Source: Malus domestica
Lineage: Eukaryota; Streptophyta; Magnoliopsida; Rosales; Rosaceae
NCBI RefSeq assembly: GCF_042453785.1
Contig: NC_091675.1
Span: forward strand, 632,501-696,500
Direction: 5' to 3'
Length of the DNA stretch: 64,000 bases
Shown here: positions 49,488 to 63,227 of the stretch, in pieces
Layout of the letters: every line of letters begins with the position of its first letter
Numbering within the stretch: position 1 is the first letter of the stretch
Position numbers and translations under genes: made by a program
Notes under the pieces: generated by a model
Databases searched by the model: none
Seen by the model: the letters and a program-made list of their open reading frames with translations, nothing else
What the model was told of the DNA's origin: nothing

Positions 49488-50810
49488 TTAAAAGGGAATC
49501 TTCTTCATTGCTTGTCCACTAAGCCGTCTAAGTACACTAGCTGTCATTTCATGATTGCTTCCATTAGCTATTCGTGATTGTGTCTAGTCCACTAGCTGTT
49601 CATTAACCTTTCATGATTGTTTCCATTAGCCATGAATGATTGATTGTTGTCTGGCTCCTATAAAGAGCACTTGTAAATCATTTGTAAGATAACTGAATAT
49701 ACATTCATACTAACCTTAATTTGGTATCAAGAACAACAAAGCTCCATCGAGCATTTTTTTTTTCGATCCTCATGTTTGAATCCACCAACTCACTCCCCTT
49801 GCCCACCCCTGTCACCATTAACGCTGCTGCTCAGTTACCTCTAAAACTCACACCCACCAACTTTCCTTCCTGACGAGCTCAATTCAATGCCCTGCTTCTT
49901 GGATATGACCTGTTAGGTTACATTGATGGATCAAAACCATGTCTTGCTGCCTCCGCTGCCGTGTCCTACACATTCTGGATTCGTCAAGATCAGCTCATAC
50001 TCAAGGGCATAGTGCAAAACGTTGCCCTCAACTTTCTTCCGCTCCACTACGGTCAACCACACCATTATCCGCTCCTCAACATCATCTCCTTGGCTGCTCG
50101 ACTCGGGTGCCTCTCACCATGTCACCTCTGACTCTAGGAACATCTCGGACTCCATTACCTATGATGGTCCTGATTATATTATTATTGGTAATGGAACAGG
50201 TTTGAGTATTACATGTTGGTTCCACATCACTCTCTTCTTCCTCTACCACCCCATTTCACTTAAATGATGTCCTGTGTGTTCCTTCCATTTCTTGTAATAT
50301 TATTTTCATTGCCAAATCTACTAGACAAAATGCAACCTCTATTGAATTTTTTCCTGATTTCTTTCTTGTCAAGGATCTCAACACGGGAGCGGCACTTCTT
50401 CGAGGCCCGAATAAGGACGATACATATGAGTGGCCGTGCTTGATGCCTCAAAAACAAGTTATGAGCAGTGTGATGGACTTCTCCAATGTGTGGCATCGTC
50501 GGCTCGGTCACCCCAACCATCGAACCTTTCTTCAAATCCAACGTACCTCCTCCATTCCTATGTCTTCAACTCATTCTGTTTGCACTTCTTGTCATTGCAA
50601 TAAAAGCCACAAGCTCCCGTTTGGTCATTCTACGCTTGTTAGTAAGCGTCCCCTTGAACTAATTTATAGTGATGTATAGGGTCCTGCTCCCTATTTATCT
50701 ACTGATGGTTTTTTATACTATGTTATGTTTGTAGATCATTTCACAAAATATATTTGGTTTTATCCCATGAAACACAAATCTGATGTTTTCTCAATCTTCA
50801 CAACCTTTAA

Positions 50811-51627
50811 GGGCCCGTTTGTTTGACAGGATTAAGAAGAACTGGACTGGACTAGACTATAGTCCTTTGTTTGGTGTGCACTAGGATTAGCTTTAATGAG
50901 CTTAGCAAGGATTCGCTCGGATTAAAGACCTCCTTAGCCGTTCTTAACGAGGATCCCCAATTTTGGGCGGACTCGTAAGCCAGAGAAAACACGAGAGATT
51001 TTATGCGTCTTCCCTTATCGTCATCATCTCTACGTCTTCCCTCATCATTGTCCTTCCCGTGCTCCCTCATCGTCGTCATCCTCACCCTCATCGCTGCGTC
51101 TTTGCTCATCTGCATCTGCTCGCCCTCATCTGCCTCAAGTTGTCTGGTAAGCTTCGAATCTTTGATTTATTTCGTCGATTTGTGTGGATTAGTTTGTGAT
51201 ATTAACTGAGCTTTATTTGATTTTGTTGTTTTGGGTTTGAGAAATTTTCAATCATAGACCTCTGCACTTGAACAAATTAGGGTTTTGATATTTATGTGAA
51301 ATTGAGATTAGAATTTTGGGTTTTCATAAGATGAGATGGAACTTGGGAATTTAGGATGTCAAAGTTGTCAAACTTGGAAGTCCTACCCACATGCTGTTTT
51401 CGATTTTTAAAATTTGGGGTTTCAACAATGGGAGTACTCTGTGTGTGTGTGTGTGTGTGTCTGTGCGTGCGTGTGTGTGTTTTTGTGTACTATGTGTGTG
51501 TGTGTGTGTACTCTGTGTGTGTGTGTGTCTGTGTGTGTGTAATCTTGTGTGTGTGTGTCTGTGTGTGTGTGTGTGAAATTGTAAAGTTTTTGTAGAAGAC
51601 ACGTAGATAATGGAAACACCTTGTGTG

Positions 51628-51659
<32 letters not shown>

Positions 51660-53051
51660 TCTCATAAACCCATTTGCCGCAGTTTCAGTTTTTCAGGTCT
51701 GTTGGAGTTTTGAAGCAGGACCTTGAAAAACAGTGGTGTACAACCCGAATCTTTTGATTACGACTTGGAGAAACGGATTGTGCCCACTTATGATTTCTTG
51801 AAGAGAATGGTTTATGAGATAAAAATGGCAATCAATGTTTTTGGAAGGGCTCGTGGATCTTGGTGGAAGGCTATGCCAAGAAGGTGACGCCAAACATTCA
51901 AATTTTGAGAGAATTAGGTATGCCTTACACTGCATTTCTCTATTGCTTGCTTGTTATCCCTACGTTTTTATGCTAAAGCTTAAAAAGCTTGAGGTTAAGC
52001 AAATGGGTGTTAATCTGCAGAAATCAACTTCGCTAACAGCAATATTCGCATTGTTTGGTAGCAATAGGTCTATAGAAATCAAAGTTGCCAAGTTTACAAA
52101 ACGTGGGGTTGGTTTGGCGATAATGTTCTCTCTACTTTTAAGCTGTACCCACATTGTATGTTTATGTCGAAGAAGAAACAAATGCTAGCAATGGAGTTTT
52201 TAGCGAACAAGATTGGATGGCCTAAAAAAACTATTGCAAAAAATCCAATGGCTCTTGGTTTCAATTCCAATAAGAGATTGGTTCCAAGGTTTTCAGTTGT
52301 TAAAGTTTTGTTGTTGAAATGATTGATAAGGGGGTTTGAAAATGTGAGTTTGGGTTTTGTGCTGGTGCCATCAGAGAAGTGCTTCTTGGAGAGGTTTATG
52401 GCTTATAACTTAGCTTTGCACTATAAAGTATTTTGGCTAATGTTAACTAGGATTTTGTAAATTATGGAGATCTACTTTGGAATGTTATACTATAGTTCAC
52501 TAGCATTTTGTAAAATATCCTGGATGAAAGTTTAGTGAATGATGTTTTAAGAGTCAATCAATGGCAAAGATTGACTTGTCACAAGTATCTTCTTATGTAC
52601 TTGTATTTGTTGAAGTTGCATGTATTGGGCACTATTCTTTTTCTTCTTTTGGGTGATAGAGTTTAAACCAAGCCACATTTGCAAATTAAACTCAACTATT
52701 TATAAATAGTATGTCCCAACTATACTATGTTCCAATTCTAGTAGCAGGTAATAGAAACAAAACAATTGTCCTCTTTTTTTTAAGATTCATAATATACATG
52801 GCAAAAATATGCTCCAATTAACCCATATCATGAGATTTGTAGCATTACTTTATTACACAATGGCAAAAATTTGTAGTCCTAGTCTAGCAAACACAAATCT
52901 GGTGAACAGTACTGTTTTTATTATCATGCTTCTTAGTCCGACACTGCACCAAACGTTTCACTAAGTTAGTCCAGCTCAGTCTAGTCTAAACCAGTCCAGC
53001 TTAATCCCTGCAGCTAGTCCAGTACGAGACGGTCTGGTGCAATAAACACTC
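50811..53051. mobile_element. PIF/Harbinger-like non-autonomous DNA transposon carrying a host gene piece
   Basis: The 2241-base insertion is flanked by TAA on both sides (50808-50810 and 53052-53054). It begins GGGCCCGTTTGTTTG and ends CAATAAACACTC, an imperfect inverted repeat (G.G...GTTT.TTG). Subterminal AGGATTAAG...CTGGACTGGACTAG on the left mirrors CTAGTCTAAACCAGTCCAGC...TTAATCC on the right. A 3-base TAA/TTA duplication and these ends fit PIF/Harbinger. The related Copia copy (59085-62660, minus) has the uninterrupted site, so the insertion boundaries are direct. No transposase is seen. The interior holds (TG)n tracts (51440-51575, 51621-51642) and an mTERF-gene fragment. Confidence 0.8.
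51690..52430 (+). pseudogene. Captured mTERF-family gene fragment inside the Harbinger-like element
   Basis: Translated in changing frames, this stretch gives plant mTERF-repeat text in the correct order. First comes YDLEKRIVPTYDFLKRMVYE, then PNIQILRELGMP, then LLLACYPYVFMLKLKKLE with MGVNLQKST. Next are IFALFGSNRSI, KKKQMLAMEFLANKIGWPKK and TIAKNPMALGFNSNKRLVPR, then SVVKVLLLK and PSEKCFLERFM. mTERF proteins are helical-repeat nucleic-acid-binding proteins of mitochondria and plastids, numerous in plants. The copy has several frameshifts and at least one stop, lacks the targeting N terminus and has no promoter of its own. It is a transduplicated, decayed gene piece and not a functional mTERF gene. 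Seen: the motif order. Inferred: capture by the transposon. Confidence 0.75.
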
Positions 53052-54913
53052 TAAAGCTCTTATAGAAAACTACTTCCACACCAAAATAATCACCTTTTAC
53101 TCTGATGGAGGGGGATAATATGTTAAACTCAAGCATTTTCTTTCCACAAATGGCATCACTCACCTCACCACTCCTCCACACTCCCGAACACAATGGTGTT
53201 ACTGAACGCCGCCACCGCCATGTTGTCGAAACAAGGTTAACACTTCTCCACCAAGCATCCTTACCCCTGACTTATTGGTCATATGCTTTCAAAACCGATG
53301 TGTATCTTATTAATAGGATGCCCACTCATGTTCTCAATAATATCTCTCCATACAAAGCTCTCATTGGTGATCTTCCTAACAACATTACGCTTCGTGTGTT
53401 TGGTTGCTTATGTTTCCCTTGATTAAGACCCTACAATTCTAACAAGCTTCTTCCTCGATCTCGTCCATGTCTCTTTCTTGGTTACTCCATGTCTCTTTCA
53501 GAGGTCTCAGAGTTGTCTCACCCCTGCACCATCACCATATGCGACTACTCACCTCTCATCTCCACATCTATCACTCCCTTACTCCCACCACCAAATAATT
53601 TCAACCATCACCCCATGACCACCCGAGCCAAAAACAATATCTTTAAACCTAAACAACTTTGCACTGCCACCAAACACCCATTTCCTTCTCCCATTGAACC
53701 AATATGTGTTTCTCAGGCTATCAAAGATCCTCTTTGGCGTGCAGCCATGTTCGACGAGTTCAATGCGTTAATCCGCAATGGCACTTGGGAGCTTGTTCCT
53801 CCTAAACCTTCACAGAATCTTATCGGGTGCAAATGGGTCTTCCGCATCAAAATACATTATGATGGCAACATTGATAGGTACAAAGCACGCCTTGTTCCTA
53901 AAGGCTTTCACCAACGTCCTGGCGTGGATTTCTTAGACACCTTCAGTCTAGTTGTCAAACCCACCACCATCCGTATTGTTCTTCATTTGGCTCTCACTCA
54001 TGGTTGGCCTCTTCGTTAATTAGACATGAACAATGCTTTTTTGCATGGATCACTCTCTGAGGATGTTTACATGGTGCAACCCCCCGGGTTCAGTGAATCT
54101 ACTGTTCCAACACATGTCTGGAAACTCCGCAAAGCTTTATATGGCCTAAAGCAGGCACCCCGATCATGGTACAAGGAATTGAGCGCCTTTTTGCTCAATC
54201 AAGGATTTGTCAATGCCATCTCAGATACCTCTCTTTATTTTTCATCAAGATAATGATGTGATCTTCCTTCTAGTTTATGTTGATCTTGTTCTTAGAGGAA
54301 CTAATACCAGGCTCCTCTCTATGTTTATTCAAGCCTTGGCAAATCGTTTTTCTGTCAAAGGTTTGGGGAACCTTCATTATTTCCTTGGGGTTGAAGTGAT
54401 ACCCACCACCACGGATTTGTGTCTTTCTCAACATAAATACATCCATGATCTTCTAGCTAAAGCTAAAATGGATGGTGCTAAGGATGTGACCACGCCAATG
54501 GCTACCTCTACTCCTTTGATTCTCTCTGATGGCTATCCTCTCACTGATGTTACTACATTTCGACAACTTGTTGGAGGTTTCCAATACCTCAGTCTCTCTG
54601 TGGCTTCTTCAAGTCACATGTTTCTACTCAGGATCAGCTTGCAGACATCCTCACAAAAGCCCTTCCTCGTCCACGCTTCCAATTGTTACGATCCAATGTC
54701 GGTGTTTAACGGGACCACCGTCTTGCGGGGGCGTAAAAGGGAATCTTCTTCATTGCTTGTCCACTAAGCCGTCTAAGTCTACCAGCTGTCATTTCATGAT
54801 TGTTTCCATTAGCTATTCATGATTGTCTAGTCCACTAGCTGTCCATTAACCTTTCATGATTGTTTCCATTAGCCATGAATGATTGATTGTTGTCTAACTC
54901 CTATAAAGAGCAC

Positions 54914-56154: not shown

Positions 56155-57650
56155 AGAAATCTTCGACAGATTGCCCGTAATTTTCGCAAAGCTGAGTGTG
56201 CATATGGCAGGTGCTAACACGTCTGGAAAAGCAGATGCCTCTTCGATATCTGAGATCGGCGCTTCGACAAATTGCCCATGATTTTCGCAAAGCTAAGTGT
56301 GCATGTGACAGGTGCTGACACGTCTAGAAAAGTAAGTGCCTCTTCGATTTCTGAGATCGGCTCGTGGTTTCTGAGCAGGCCCAGCTTTTGAGAAAGCAGG
56401 CGTCTCTTCGATTTCTGAGCAGGCTCATCTTCTAAGAAAGCAGGCGCCTCTTCGATTTCTGAGCGGGCGCCTCTTCAATTTCTGAAGCTCCGTCGAGTGC
56501 TGATTTTTATAGAGGCATGCATTACGTTTCAAAGCATACTTGCATTGCCGCCTGTAGAAACTCCCTTGTTTCACTTCTGAAATCTTGATTTGTCTGACCT
56601 CGTCTTTTTCTTCAACACCTTCGGAAATGTCTTGCACATTTGACCGTCGTCTTAACTTGAATGTCGGGGAAGATATTAACATGTCTTCTCCAGAAAACAT
56701 TTGGCATCCGTCCTTCTTATCCCCCCAATGGTCATCTTACAGTTGGAGAGTCTATGATGATGAACGATACAACTGCTTCGGTGGTGGCCAGAAATCTTCT
56801 CACTCCAAGAAACAGTAGGATACTTTCCAAACGGTTCGACGAGTTGGCTGTTCAGGACTTTCTGGCCTTTAACGTCCAATGTGCAGCCTCAGTATCAAAC
56901 ATGGGCCAACGCCTTCTCGCTCGATCTCGTTAGGTTGAGTCTTTGATTGCTGAGATGGTTAGTCTTCGTCAAGAGATTAGAATGCTTAGGCACGAGACTA
57001 AAGAGTTGCACATACTCGCAACTAATTACTCAACGAGTATGAAGAGGAAGCTTGACCAGCTGCAGGAGTTTGAAGTTTGGATTCAGAGTGATCATCAAAG
57101 GTTTGTAGCGTTACTCTAGAGGCAACTTCTGCCTTCGTCATCTGGCGCTTCACAAGTGTTAAGGCTCCGGAAAATCAAACTCTGATGCTTCATCTTTCTG
57201 AAGCTCCGTCGAGTGCTAAGGCATCACCTGACCAATGAAGGACGGATGCCAAATGTTTTTTGGAGAAGACATGTCAATATCTTCCCTGACATTCAAGTTA
57301 AGAAGACGGTCAAATGGGCAAGACATTTCCGAATGTGTTGAAGAAAAAGAAGAGGTCAGACAAATCAAGATTTCAGAAGTGAAAGAAGGGAGTTTCTACA
57401 GGCGACAATGCAAGTGTGCTTTGAAACGTAATGCATGCCTCTATAAAAATCAGCACTCGACAGAGCTTCAGAAATCGAAGAGGCACCTGCTTTATCAGAA
57501 GATGAGCCTGCTCAGAAATCGAAGAAACGCCTGCTTTCTCAAAAGCTGGGTCTGCTCAGAAACCACGGGCCGATCTCAGAAATCGAAGAGGCGCTTGCTT
57601 TTCCAGACGTGTCAGCACCTGTCACATGCATTAAAATATAGCTCAAAATA
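56155..57650. repeat. LARD-type retroelement fossil with a large inverted duplication
   Basis: A ~105-base tandem duplication (56155-56263 and 56264-56363) is followed by an arm at about 56303-56710. That arm reappears inverted at about 57235-57650. The centre (56711-57234) has a gag-like, coiled-coil-type coding remnant. I read it as a piece of a non-autonomous LTR retroelement (LARD-like). It is broken, with many changes between the arms. No pol region is seen. Confidence 0.55.
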
Positions 57651-59084: not shown

Positions 59085-62000
59085 ATCCATTTTAGCTTTA
59101 GCTAGAAGATCATGGATGTATTTATGTTAAGCAAGAAACAAACCCGTGGTGGTGGGTATCACTTCAACCCCAAGGAAATAATGAAGGTTCCCCAAATCTT
59201 TGACAGAAAAACGATTTGCCAAGGCTTGAATAAACGTAGAAATGAGCCTGGTATTAGTTCCTGTAAGAACAAGATCATCAACATAAACTAGAAGGAAGAT
59301 CACATTATTATCCTGACGAAAAATAAAGAGAGAGGTATCTGAGATGACATTGACAAATCCTTGATTGAGCAAAAAGACGCTCAACTCCTTGTACCATGAT
59401 CGGGGTGCCTGCTTTAGGCCATATAAAGCTTTGCGGAGTTTGCAGACATGTGTTGGAACAGTAGATTCACCGAACCCGGGGGGTTGCACCATGTAAACAT
59501 CCTCAGAGAGTGATCCATGCAAAAAAGCATTGTTCACGTCTAATTAACGAATAGGCCAACCATGAGTGAGAGCCAAATGAAGAACAATATGGATGGTGGT
59601 GGGTTTGATAACTGGATTGAAGATGTCTAAGAAATCCATGCCAGGATGTTGGTGAAAGCCTTTAGCAACAAGGTGTGCTTTGTACCTATCAATGTTGCCA
59701 TCAGAATGTCTTTTGATGCGGAAGACCCATTTGCACCCAATAAGATTCTGTGAAGGTTGAGGAGGAACAAGCTCCCAAGTGCCATTGCGGCTTAACGCAT
59801 TGAACTCATCGAACATGGCTGGACGCCAAAAAGGATCTTTGATAGCCTGAGAAACACATGTTGGTTCAATGGGAGAATGAAGTGGGTGTTTGGTGGCAGT
59901 GCAAAGTTGTTTAGGTTTAAAGATAATGTTTTTGGCTCGGGTGGTCATGGGGTGATGGTTGAAATTATTTGGTGGTAGTGGTAGGGGTGAGGGAGTGATA
60001 GATGTGGTGATGGGGGGTGGGCAGTTGCAGATGGTGATGGTGTAGGGGAGAGACATAACTCCGAGACCTCTAAAGACGTATGAGTGGCAACATGCTGAAA
60101 AGATGAGGTGTGTGATGGAACCGGTGGTACCTCGGCAATGTGAGCAGGAATGGAGATGGTTGTTAGAGTGATAACAGACCATGCGGTGGAGTTGGGGGAA
60201 GGAACTAGAGGGACGACGGAGTCAGGAGAAGAAAAAGGAAAAGTGTTTTCGTCAAATCGAACGTGACGGGAAACAAACATACGATGGGAATGGAGATCAA
60301 AACATAGATAAGCACTTTGAGTAGAGGAGTAACCAAGAAAGAGACATGGACGAGATCGAGGAAGAAGCTTGTTGGAATTGTACGGTCTTAACCAAGGGAA
60401 ACATAAGCAACCAAACACACGAAGCTTAATGTAGTTAGAAAGATCACCAAATAGAGCTTTGTATGGAGAGATATTATTGAGAACATGAGTGGGCATCCTA
60501 TTAATAAGATACACATCAGTTTTGAAAGCATATGACCAATAAGTTAGGGGTAAGGATGCTTGGTGGATAAGTGTTAACCCTGTTTCGACAACATGGCGAT
60601 GGCAGCGTTCAGTAACACCATTGTGTTCGGGAGTGTGTGAAGGAGTGGTGAGGTGAGTGATGCCATTTGTGGAAAGAAAATGCTTGAGTTTAACATATTC
60701 TCCCCCTCCGTCAAAGTAAAAGGTGATTATTTTGGTGTGGAAGTAGTTTTCTACAAGAGCTTTAAAGGTTGTGAAGATTGAGAAAACATCGGATTTGTGT
60801 TTCATGGGATAAAACCAAATATATTTTGTGAAATGATCTACAAAGATAACATAGTATGAAAAACCATTAGTAGATAAATAGGGAGCAGGACCCCATACAT
60901 CACTATAAATTAGTTTAAGGGGACGCTTACTAACAAACGTAGAATGACCAAACAGAAGCTTGTGGCTCTTATTGCAATGATAAGAAGTGCAAACAAAATG
61001 AGTTAAAGACATAGGAATGGAGGAGGTACGTTGGATTTGAAGAAAGGTTCGATGGTTGGGGTGACCGAGCCGACGGTGCCACACATTGGAGAAGTCCATC
61101 ACACTGCTCATAACTTGTTTTTGAGGCATCAAGCACGGCCACTCATATGTATCGTCCTTATTCGGGCCTCGAAGAAGTGCCGTTCCCGTGTTGAGATCCT
61201 TGACAAGAAAGAAATCAGGAGAAAATTCAATAGAGGTTGCATTTTGTCTATTAAATTTGGCAATGGAAATAATATTATGAGAAATAGAAGGAACACACAG
61301 GACATCATTTAAGTGAAATAGGGTGGTAGAGGAAAAAGAGAGTGATGTGGAACCAACATGTGTAATACTTAAACCTGTTCCATTACCAATAATAATCTGA
61401 TCAGGACCATCATAAGTAATGGAGTCCGGGATGTTCCTAGAGTCAGAGGTGACATGGTGAGAGGCACCCGAGTCGAGCAGCCAAGGAGATGATGTTGAGG
61501 AGCGGATAGTGGTGTGGTTGACCATAGGTGGAGCGGAAGAAAGTTGAGGGCAACGTTTTGCACTATGCCCTTGAGTACCACACCATTGACATAAACCACG
61601 ATACCCCGTACCGGAACGGCGATTATAAGATTTGTGGTTGTTAGCACGGTGAGAGTTGTAGATGGTATTCGTTGGACGTTGTTGGGAGGCTTGTGTGGAC
61701 CTGAAGTCACGCTGGGAGGAGCGGGGAGCTTGAGCAACAAGGGTAATCATAGGAGCTGGTGGTGCATCCCGTTGGAGAAAAGTTTCATGTTCAATGAGTT
61801 TGTCATACAGATTCTCAAAGGAGATGGAGGTATCGCTAGCTCGAACAACGGTAGCTATTTCTTTGAATGCAGGTCCAACACCACTGAAGACGTGTAGAGC
61901 AACATCATCGTCGGATAATGGAGAATCAATGATGGCAAGCTCATCGATGATAGCTTTGATAGCTTGTAGAAAAACTGACACAGGTTGTGTATCACGATGA

Positions 62001-62660
62001 GCATAAGATGTTCTTTGAGGTTGAGAACCCGATAGCGTGTTTTGTTGGCGTAGAGCTTGGTGAGCTTGTCCCAAGCCTCCTTAGAGGTTTTAGAGGAGGA
62101 AATGAGAGATATAATATGTTCAAAGACAGAAGCTAAGATAGCATGTAGTAGGAGCTGATCTTGACGAATCCAGAAGGTGTAGGACACGGCAGAAGAGGCA
62201 GCAGGACATGGTTTTGATCCATCAATGTAACCTATCAGGTCATATCCAAGAAGCAGGGCATTAAATTGAGCTCGCCAGGAAGGAAAGTTGGTGGGTGTGA
62301 GTTTTAGAGGTAACTGAGCAGCAGCGTTAATGGTGACAGGGGTGGGCAAGGGGAGTGAGTTGGTGGATTTAGCCATGAGGATCGGAAAAAAAAATGCTCG
62401 ATGGAGCTTTGTTGCTCTTGATACCAAATTAAGGTTAGTATGAATGTATATTCAGTTATCTTACAAATGATTTACAAGTGCTCTTTATAGGAGCTAGACA
62501 ACAATCAATCATTCATGGCTAATGGAAACAATCATGAAAGGTTAATGAACAGCTAGTGGACTAGACACAATCATGAATAGCTAATGGAAGCAATCATGAA
62601 AGGACTGCTGATGGACTTAGACGGCTTAGTGGACAAGCAATGAAGAAGATTCCCTTTTAA
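59085..62660 (-). mobile_element. Copia LTR retrotransposon fossil, copy 2 (inverted to copy 1)
   Basis: Minus-strand Ty1/Copia fossil. The 5' LTR lies at about 62660-62420. It is followed by a gag region with a UBN2-type domain and CCHC zinc knuckle (CQWCGTQGHSAKRC, near 61.58 kb), a protease (WLLDSGASHHV, near 61.48 kb), integrase (WHRRLGHPNHRTF) and part of reverse transcriptase (YVDDLVLTG). A long gag-to-integrase frame survives, but the element is broken: the 3' end, including RNase H and the 3' LTR, is missing beyond 59085. It lacks the Harbinger-like insertion present in copy 1. The two copies are close relatives in opposite orientation. Confidence 0.87.
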
Positions 62661-63227
62661 TCCACAACCTATAGGTTGCAAACAAGCAAAACTAGTGCTA
62701 AAACCATGAATCTGTAATATGTATTTTAAAAGTACGACCACCACTCAGACATACCAAAAATGCAGGTTTCAAACTGTCAATTGCAAGCTATAATAAAACC
62801 TAAAGTGCTCTAATGCAGCATCCACCAAAATAAACATTTACTGATTCCCATATATGCCAAACAACAAGGGCTTGGTTGAATTGCAGGTATACGTGATCTA
62901 GCTGCAGAAAGCGACGATATGTTCATTACTTGTATTCCAAGTTGGGTACTTGATCAGACATGCTTTCTGATGCTTCAAAGTCAGCACTTCAGTGCATGCT
63001 GCAATGGCCAGGCAAGCAGAGCATAGTGGAGACTAAATAACTAGCTATGACACTTAAACACAGTCCAAAACAAATTCTATTTCCTGAATGGAATGAGAAG
63101 TATAAAGCAGCTCAAACAGTATGCAGTGAACCCAGCAATAATTGTTCAAGCAAATCCAATTATCGGAACCCAACTCAACGAGCAAAAAGAGTGCTACAAT
63201 TAAAGAAATGGGGAAGCAAAGACTCAC
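62661..63227. other. Right remnant of the host intron
   Basis: Begins with the second copy of the palindrome AACCTATAGGTT (62666-62677) and continues as non-repetitive sequence to exon 2 of the split gene. With the left remnant it suggests an original intron of about 0.95 kb. Confidence 0.5.

Follow-up and report, generated by a model that had tools for sequence, protein, structure and literature searches.

An mTERF-bearing PIF/Harbinger element in apple and a family of copies with differing interiors

The window analyzed here, a stretch of 64,000 nucleotides of the Malus domestica genome (contig NC_091675.1, positions 632,501 to 696,500 of the forward strand), contains two related retroelements in inverted orientation, one of which is interrupted by a shorter DNA element that carries part of an mTERF gene (Table 1). 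Consistent with the first-pass annotation of this DNA, which had pointed to an uninterrupted insertion site in the sister retroelement, the empty site reads GAGCTTTAAAGGTT at 60757 on the minus strand, or AACCTTTAAAGCTC in the sense of the element. This comparison supports insertion of the element later than the retroelement copy that hosts it. The Copia label of the host retroelement was put to a weak test, in which a 43-aa piece matched rve at E 0.048, below the cutoff, and a 71-aa piece gave no profile match. Two further features of the window were observed: roughly 570 bp between aligned blocks of the sister (61577–62147) are missing from the host copy near 50001, and a large inverted repeat at 56161–57630, with arms of 255 nt at 56462–56716 and 57237–57491 that are 95% identical, is made of tandem units of ~44 and ~100 nt and is possibly a fold-back element.

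Table 1. Features of the element and its surroundings (window positions)
Feature	Position	Strand	Basis
Host retroelement, 5' terminal repeat	49489–49670	+	94.5% to 54734–54913
Left target-site duplication TAA	50808–50810	.	Sequence
Putative Pack-PIF element	50811–53051	+	Lies between TAA duplications
Left terminal inverted repeat GGGCCCGTTTGTT	50811–50823	+	Start matches 17 other copies, with small variants
5' family region, without transposase coding	50811–51575	+	74–96% to other copies over element positions 1–765 or most of them
TG-rich simple-repeat tract, T run at its end	51440–51659	+	Sequence; length strongly variable from copy to copy
Captured mTERF coding fragment	51666–52397	+	PF02536 E 5.8e-10; 77% to C2 mTERF gene
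3' family region	52396–53048	+	86–97% in other copies over element positions 1586–2237 or part of them
Right terminal inverted repeat, decayed	53039–53051	-	Other copies mostly end CAACAAACGCACCC or near it
Right target-site duplication TAA	53052–53054	.	Sequence
Host retroelement, 3' terminal repeat	54734–54913	+	94.5% to 49489–49670, over 182 bp
Inverted sister retroelement	59085–62677	-	93–96% to host, five aligned pieces
Uninterrupted insertion site in sister	60757–60770	-	Exact match, once in window

The element itself, with its TAA duplication, PIF/Harbinger-type ends, mTERF interior and empty site, is confirmed as real. Its terminal inverted repeats are short and imperfect (GGGCCCGTTTGTT at the left, against a common family 3' end of CAACAAACGCACCC, the reverse complement of which is GGGTGCGTTTGTTG), and the right-end repeat of the window copy has decayed. 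All 10 copies for which both ends were read are flanked by a 3-bp duplication, which is TAA/TTA in eight, TGA in one and CTA in one. A search of the whole genome (651 Mb in 19 contigs) with the full element returned 2003 candidates; among the 40 that were scored, copies match element positions 1 to ~765 and 1586–2239 at up to 97%, and matches that continue past position 765, up to ~838, are weak and lie in the repeat tract alone. The 3' end is also abundant on its own, with a 32-mer from it occurring at 718 genomic sites at up to three mismatches and the reversed pattern of the same 32-mer at none. Several copies share an interior of ~2.7 kb that encodes DDE_Tnp_4 and Myb/SANT-like domains; this was tested in one of them, L016, where interior pieces matched DDE_Tnp_4 (PF13359, E 1.8e-8 and 2e-12) and Myb_DNA-bind_3 (PF12776, E 2.8e-9). 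The DDE_Tnp_4 transposase is encoded by family members and not by the window copy. Given the 3-bp duplications, the end family and the DDE_Tnp_4 and Myb/SANT-like domains, we assign the family to PIF/Harbinger, and the Harbinger-style ends and TAA duplications reported at first pass are borne out.

The middle of the element is related to mTERF genes, in the decayed form that the first reading had described. It is collinear with them over 732–737 bp, with a best DNA identity of 77%, exceeds the Pfam cutoff for PF02536 (stops being read as X), and as a 742-bp DNA query retrieves an mTERF gene at E 2e-156. The homologous stretch begins at 51666 and extends to 52397–52402, with family sequence beginning again at 52396; the interval originally proposed, 51690–52430, departs from it slightly. 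The piece corresponds to approximately codons 127–378 of mTERF genes that are roughly 400 aa long. Its gene frame is interrupted by five frameshifting indels, one 15-bp deletion and one stop in 240 codons, and no intact mTERF reading frame is present in the fragment. A gene frame broken several times, first recognized by eye, could raise the suspicion of chance or low-complexity similarity, but the PF02536 match (E 5.8e-10) and the DNA match refute that explanation, to which we assign next to no probability.

When the mTERF piece was searched against the genome, 40 matches at 37 candidate places were obtained, mostly in two mTERF arrays at C2:33.5–34.4 Mb and C7:2.8–4.2 Mb, with five places outside them. 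Eight of the 11 array copies examined have a single open frame of ~386–451 codons, and intact genes as well as an mTERF protein profile do match the piece, two points on which the capture proposed at first pass had been staked. Both arrays also include numerous copies that are truncated or contain stops, and fragments are dispersed over other chromosomes. Flanking sequence was fetched for three of the five off-array places (L053, L054 and L067; C7:1.99 Mb was left out), and none of the three has element sequence within the 0.5–1.6 kb beside the match; the off-array match on C4 sits in a 415-aa open frame. The capture proposal had likewise been set against the possibility that every element copy carries the mTERF sequence: among the 40 scored of the 2003 element candidates, no copy other than that in the window matches the mTERF middle, and no second element copy with the piece was found among the genome matches or in the flanks of the three off-array places. 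The copies seen have differing interiors, which for them rules out mTERF sequence as an original component of the element.

To describe what these interiors contain, we compared 32 copies (that of the window, plus 20 and then 11 regions, labeled L, taken from the best whole-genome matches), a non-random sample in which several copies were read in part. Many of the regions contain a partial copy, meaning that further content could be missed. A content class was assigned in 26 of the 32, the remaining six being L014, L019, L020, L023, L026 and L066. Ten have the transposase body by alignment (L011, L012, L013, L015, L016, L024, L025, L057, L058 and L060). Fragments of host loci occur in 10 of these 32 non-randomly sampled copies and derive from five sources, including an unnamed locus on chromosome 1: the mTERF cargo in the window copy alone, a kinase-like cargo in two (L009 and L010), an A_thal_3526-like piece joined to a kinase-like tail in one (L028), a chromosome-1 tail in three (L017, L018 and L021) and a TLD-like piece in three (L063, L064 and L065). 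BLAST finds no transposase body in the cargo copies read from end to end, namely those of the window, L009, L010, L017, L018 and L028. A 2.24-kb interior is common to four copies (L056, L059, L061 and L062), and a second, distinct interior is shared by two (L022 and L027). The former (positions 1–2240 of L059) is 97–99% identical in L056, L061 and L062; parts of this type of interior are also found at C12:7.79 and C12:9.46 Mb, and inspection of its longest frames by eye recognized no gene or transposase. In the interiors of L015, L022, L024 and L025, the TG-rich tract has grown to long variable tandem repeats.

Two of the host loci that match captured pieces do so at 96% and lack element sequence next to the stretch that was copied. 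The first is C1:30839635–30841991, matched over 2334 bp by the A_thal_3526-like piece of L028, with no element sequence in the 735 and 698 bp that flank it. Similarity of this piece to A_thal_3526 (E 5.2e-5) is below the Pfam cutoff, and related sequence lies in separate blocks at C7:35.1 Mb. Because its open stretches are all short, the piece likely includes introns. It runs straight into the kinase-like tail, making L028 a compound capture. The second locus is C1:29429903, matched at 96% over 257 bp by the chromosome-1 tail, which is present in L017, L018, L021 and a fourth place on C6 and for which a Pfam search gave no match; no element sequence lies beside the genomic match as fetched in L068. 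The kinase-like piece shared by L009 and L010, which we take to represent a lectin-type receptor kinase gene, is up to 88% identical to genes at C10:2.28–2.45 Mb and collinear with them into the gene tail, with Pfam kinase domains below the cutoff (E 0.0035). The remaining piece, 1.05 kb in length and presumably TLD-like, is 88–91% identical to C14:3251748, and its Pfam search returned one irrelevant viral-family match at E 0.035. Three of the cargo pieces are multi-copy (two copies for the kinase-like piece, three or more for the chromosome-1 tail and three for the TLD-like piece), which argues that packed copies of this family have spread.

The junctions of these pieces share 0–4 bp. At the 3' junction of the mTERF piece, TGGC is common to the window copy, to two of three element copies compared, L009 and L012 (not L015), and to three of five mTERF genes compared, L033, L035 and L036 (not L030 or L031); the 3' junction of the kinase-like piece shares TTA, the join between the A_thal_3526-like and kinase-like pieces of L028 shares CA, and the 5' junction of L028 is blunt or shares 1 bp. 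The TG-rich tract adjoins the mTERF and kinase-like pieces on their 5' side and the TLD-like piece on its 3' side, which puts it at or beside a junction in three of the four cases examined; none was seen at that of L028.

Taken together, we read the window element, with a probability of about 0.87, as a Pack-PIF (a Pack-type, non-autonomous member of PIF/Harbinger) with an mTERF-replaced interior, belonging to a family that captures repeatedly and most likely exchanges its interiors by template switching during repair. The interior, which in other copies encodes the DDE transposase and the Myb/SANT-like protein, has given way to DNA copied from the internal part of an mTERF gene, most likely when repair of a break or gap within the element switched to another template. 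Donor-like loci that are still in place, the long genomic stretches copied, junctions inside the element that share 0–4 bp and the TG-rich tract at three of four junctions all favor such a mechanism. As the ends are kept, transposase from other copies could mobilize elements of this kind in trans. It is also conceivable that the element inserted with a different interior, which was later patched in place with mTERF sequence by gap filling, and that its present form has never moved. That the mTERF piece was found in a single copy and that ~4 bp are shared at its 3' junction is what such an order of events would leave, but three other pieces of the family each occur in more than one copy, and with the window itself not decisive we consider in-place patching a serious possibility that falls well below even odds. 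Going beyond the Pack-PIF reading, this may be a habitual gene-copying family in which the unstable TG-rich tract acts as a site of breakage and template switching, where pieces are loaded, sometimes two in succession, and from which they then spread; we regard this extension as rather unlikely.

The age of the capture is a separate matter from the age of the insertion. We counted private changes at positions where the remaining sequences are identical or have at most one exception, and found 12/547 and 19/642 in the two ends of the window element (31/1189 in sum) and 72/518 in the mTERF piece (Fisher p 1.4e-17), a comparison in which the reference sets differ, being element copies for the ends and array genes for the piece. 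The ends are thus much less diverged than the piece. The empty site dates the insertion and not the capture; the first-pass dating of the event, to after the split of the two Copia copies, is supported for the former, as later than the host retroelement copy, and not for the latter. The search for a parental gene had a similarly divided outcome, reaching the mTERF gene family and not the exact donor, with no gene closer than 77% found in the assembly. A 12-sequence tree places the piece on a long branch (0.23) that joins the C7 genes near the C7/C2 split with support of 0.946. These comparisons suggest that the source of the piece diverged earlier or is unsampled, and the donor is likely either an mTERF gene that evolved fast and was lost or an older pseudogene.

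Whether that donor was already dead, a pseudogene at the time of pick-up, rather than a working gene that was lost later, can be weighed from how the piece has changed. Its excess of private changes over the element ends, the even spread of its differences from L030 over the three codon positions (0.23, 0.19 and 0.22) and the many broken copies in the mTERF arrays would suit a dead source. Under neutral simulation, however, 100–140 changes, which is our estimate for the branch of the piece, produce a mean of 3.9–5.8 stops, and the single stop in 240 codons (P for one or fewer 0.016–0.094) mildly favors gene status for much of the separate history of the piece. Array copies carry nine to 56 private changes per 532–556 sites, the high of 56/556 belonging to L040, which diverges most among them. 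Given such divergence, and with no codon position spared among the array genes, a fast-evolving mTERF gene that was later lost fits as well. On balance, we place the dead source only a little short of an even chance. Together, C-to-T and G-to-A make up 25/72 changes in the piece, against a higher 19/31 in the element ends (p 0.017) and 103/169 in other copies by a hand tally of L009, L010, L012, L013, L015 and L016 that leaves out L017, L018 and L028. The lower share in the piece gives a weak hint that most of the mTERF changes predate the stay of the piece in the element. At 77% identity, long perfect small-RNA matches between the piece and its nearest mTERF gene would not be expected.

The apple locus offers a PIF/Harbinger family that has captured host sequence repeatedly, two donor loci at 96% for sister copies and one exact empty site, making the pick-up of genes by cut-and-paste elements testable through the reading of junctions and the comparison of cultivars. 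It also calls for caution in annotation, as mTERF-like matches in such genomes can be transposon cargo.

Pack-MULEs and Helitrons likewise capture gene fragments, and differ from the apple family in that they belong to other transposase families, with target-site behavior unlike that of PIF/Harbinger. The first-pass remark that capture is less documented for PIF/Harbinger elements is a fair one, and the phenomenon is not new: Pack-PIFs have been documented in both maize and rice (PMC8903248), and grapevine Pifvine-3 elements are described as containing transduplicated exons and introns (PMC2528002). The literature searched, with subscription papers outside its scope, yielded no report of mTERF capture by an apple PIF/Harbinger element; the main text of PMC8903248 has no match to Malus or apple, and a 2026 review (PMC13317346) has no term match to Harbinger, apple or mTERF. 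The Pack-PIFs of PMC8903248 resemble the apple element in keeping PIF/Harbinger ends around gene fragments and in having interiors that differ. Their formation is modeled there as the fusion of neighboring insertions, whereas both junctions of the apple element lie inside one conserved element frame, an arrangement that would fit template switching better. Pifvine-3 is also a single PIF family with many copies that bear host sequences, some of the pieces being common to several copies; its pieces are reported to lie in a long extra 5' region (PMC2528002), while the apple cargo copies read end to end are without the transposase body. Template switching at the DNA level during repair has been proposed for animal Pack-TIRs, which are reported to show single-copy and multicopy captures and short shared sequence at junctions as seen here (PMC8277862). 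That work concerns other hosts and draws on chance-tested overlaps and species comparison, in contrast to the plain overlap counts presented here. Gene capture by PIF elements is thus already in print, and the mTERF-bearing element of apple adds a well-bounded new example to it.
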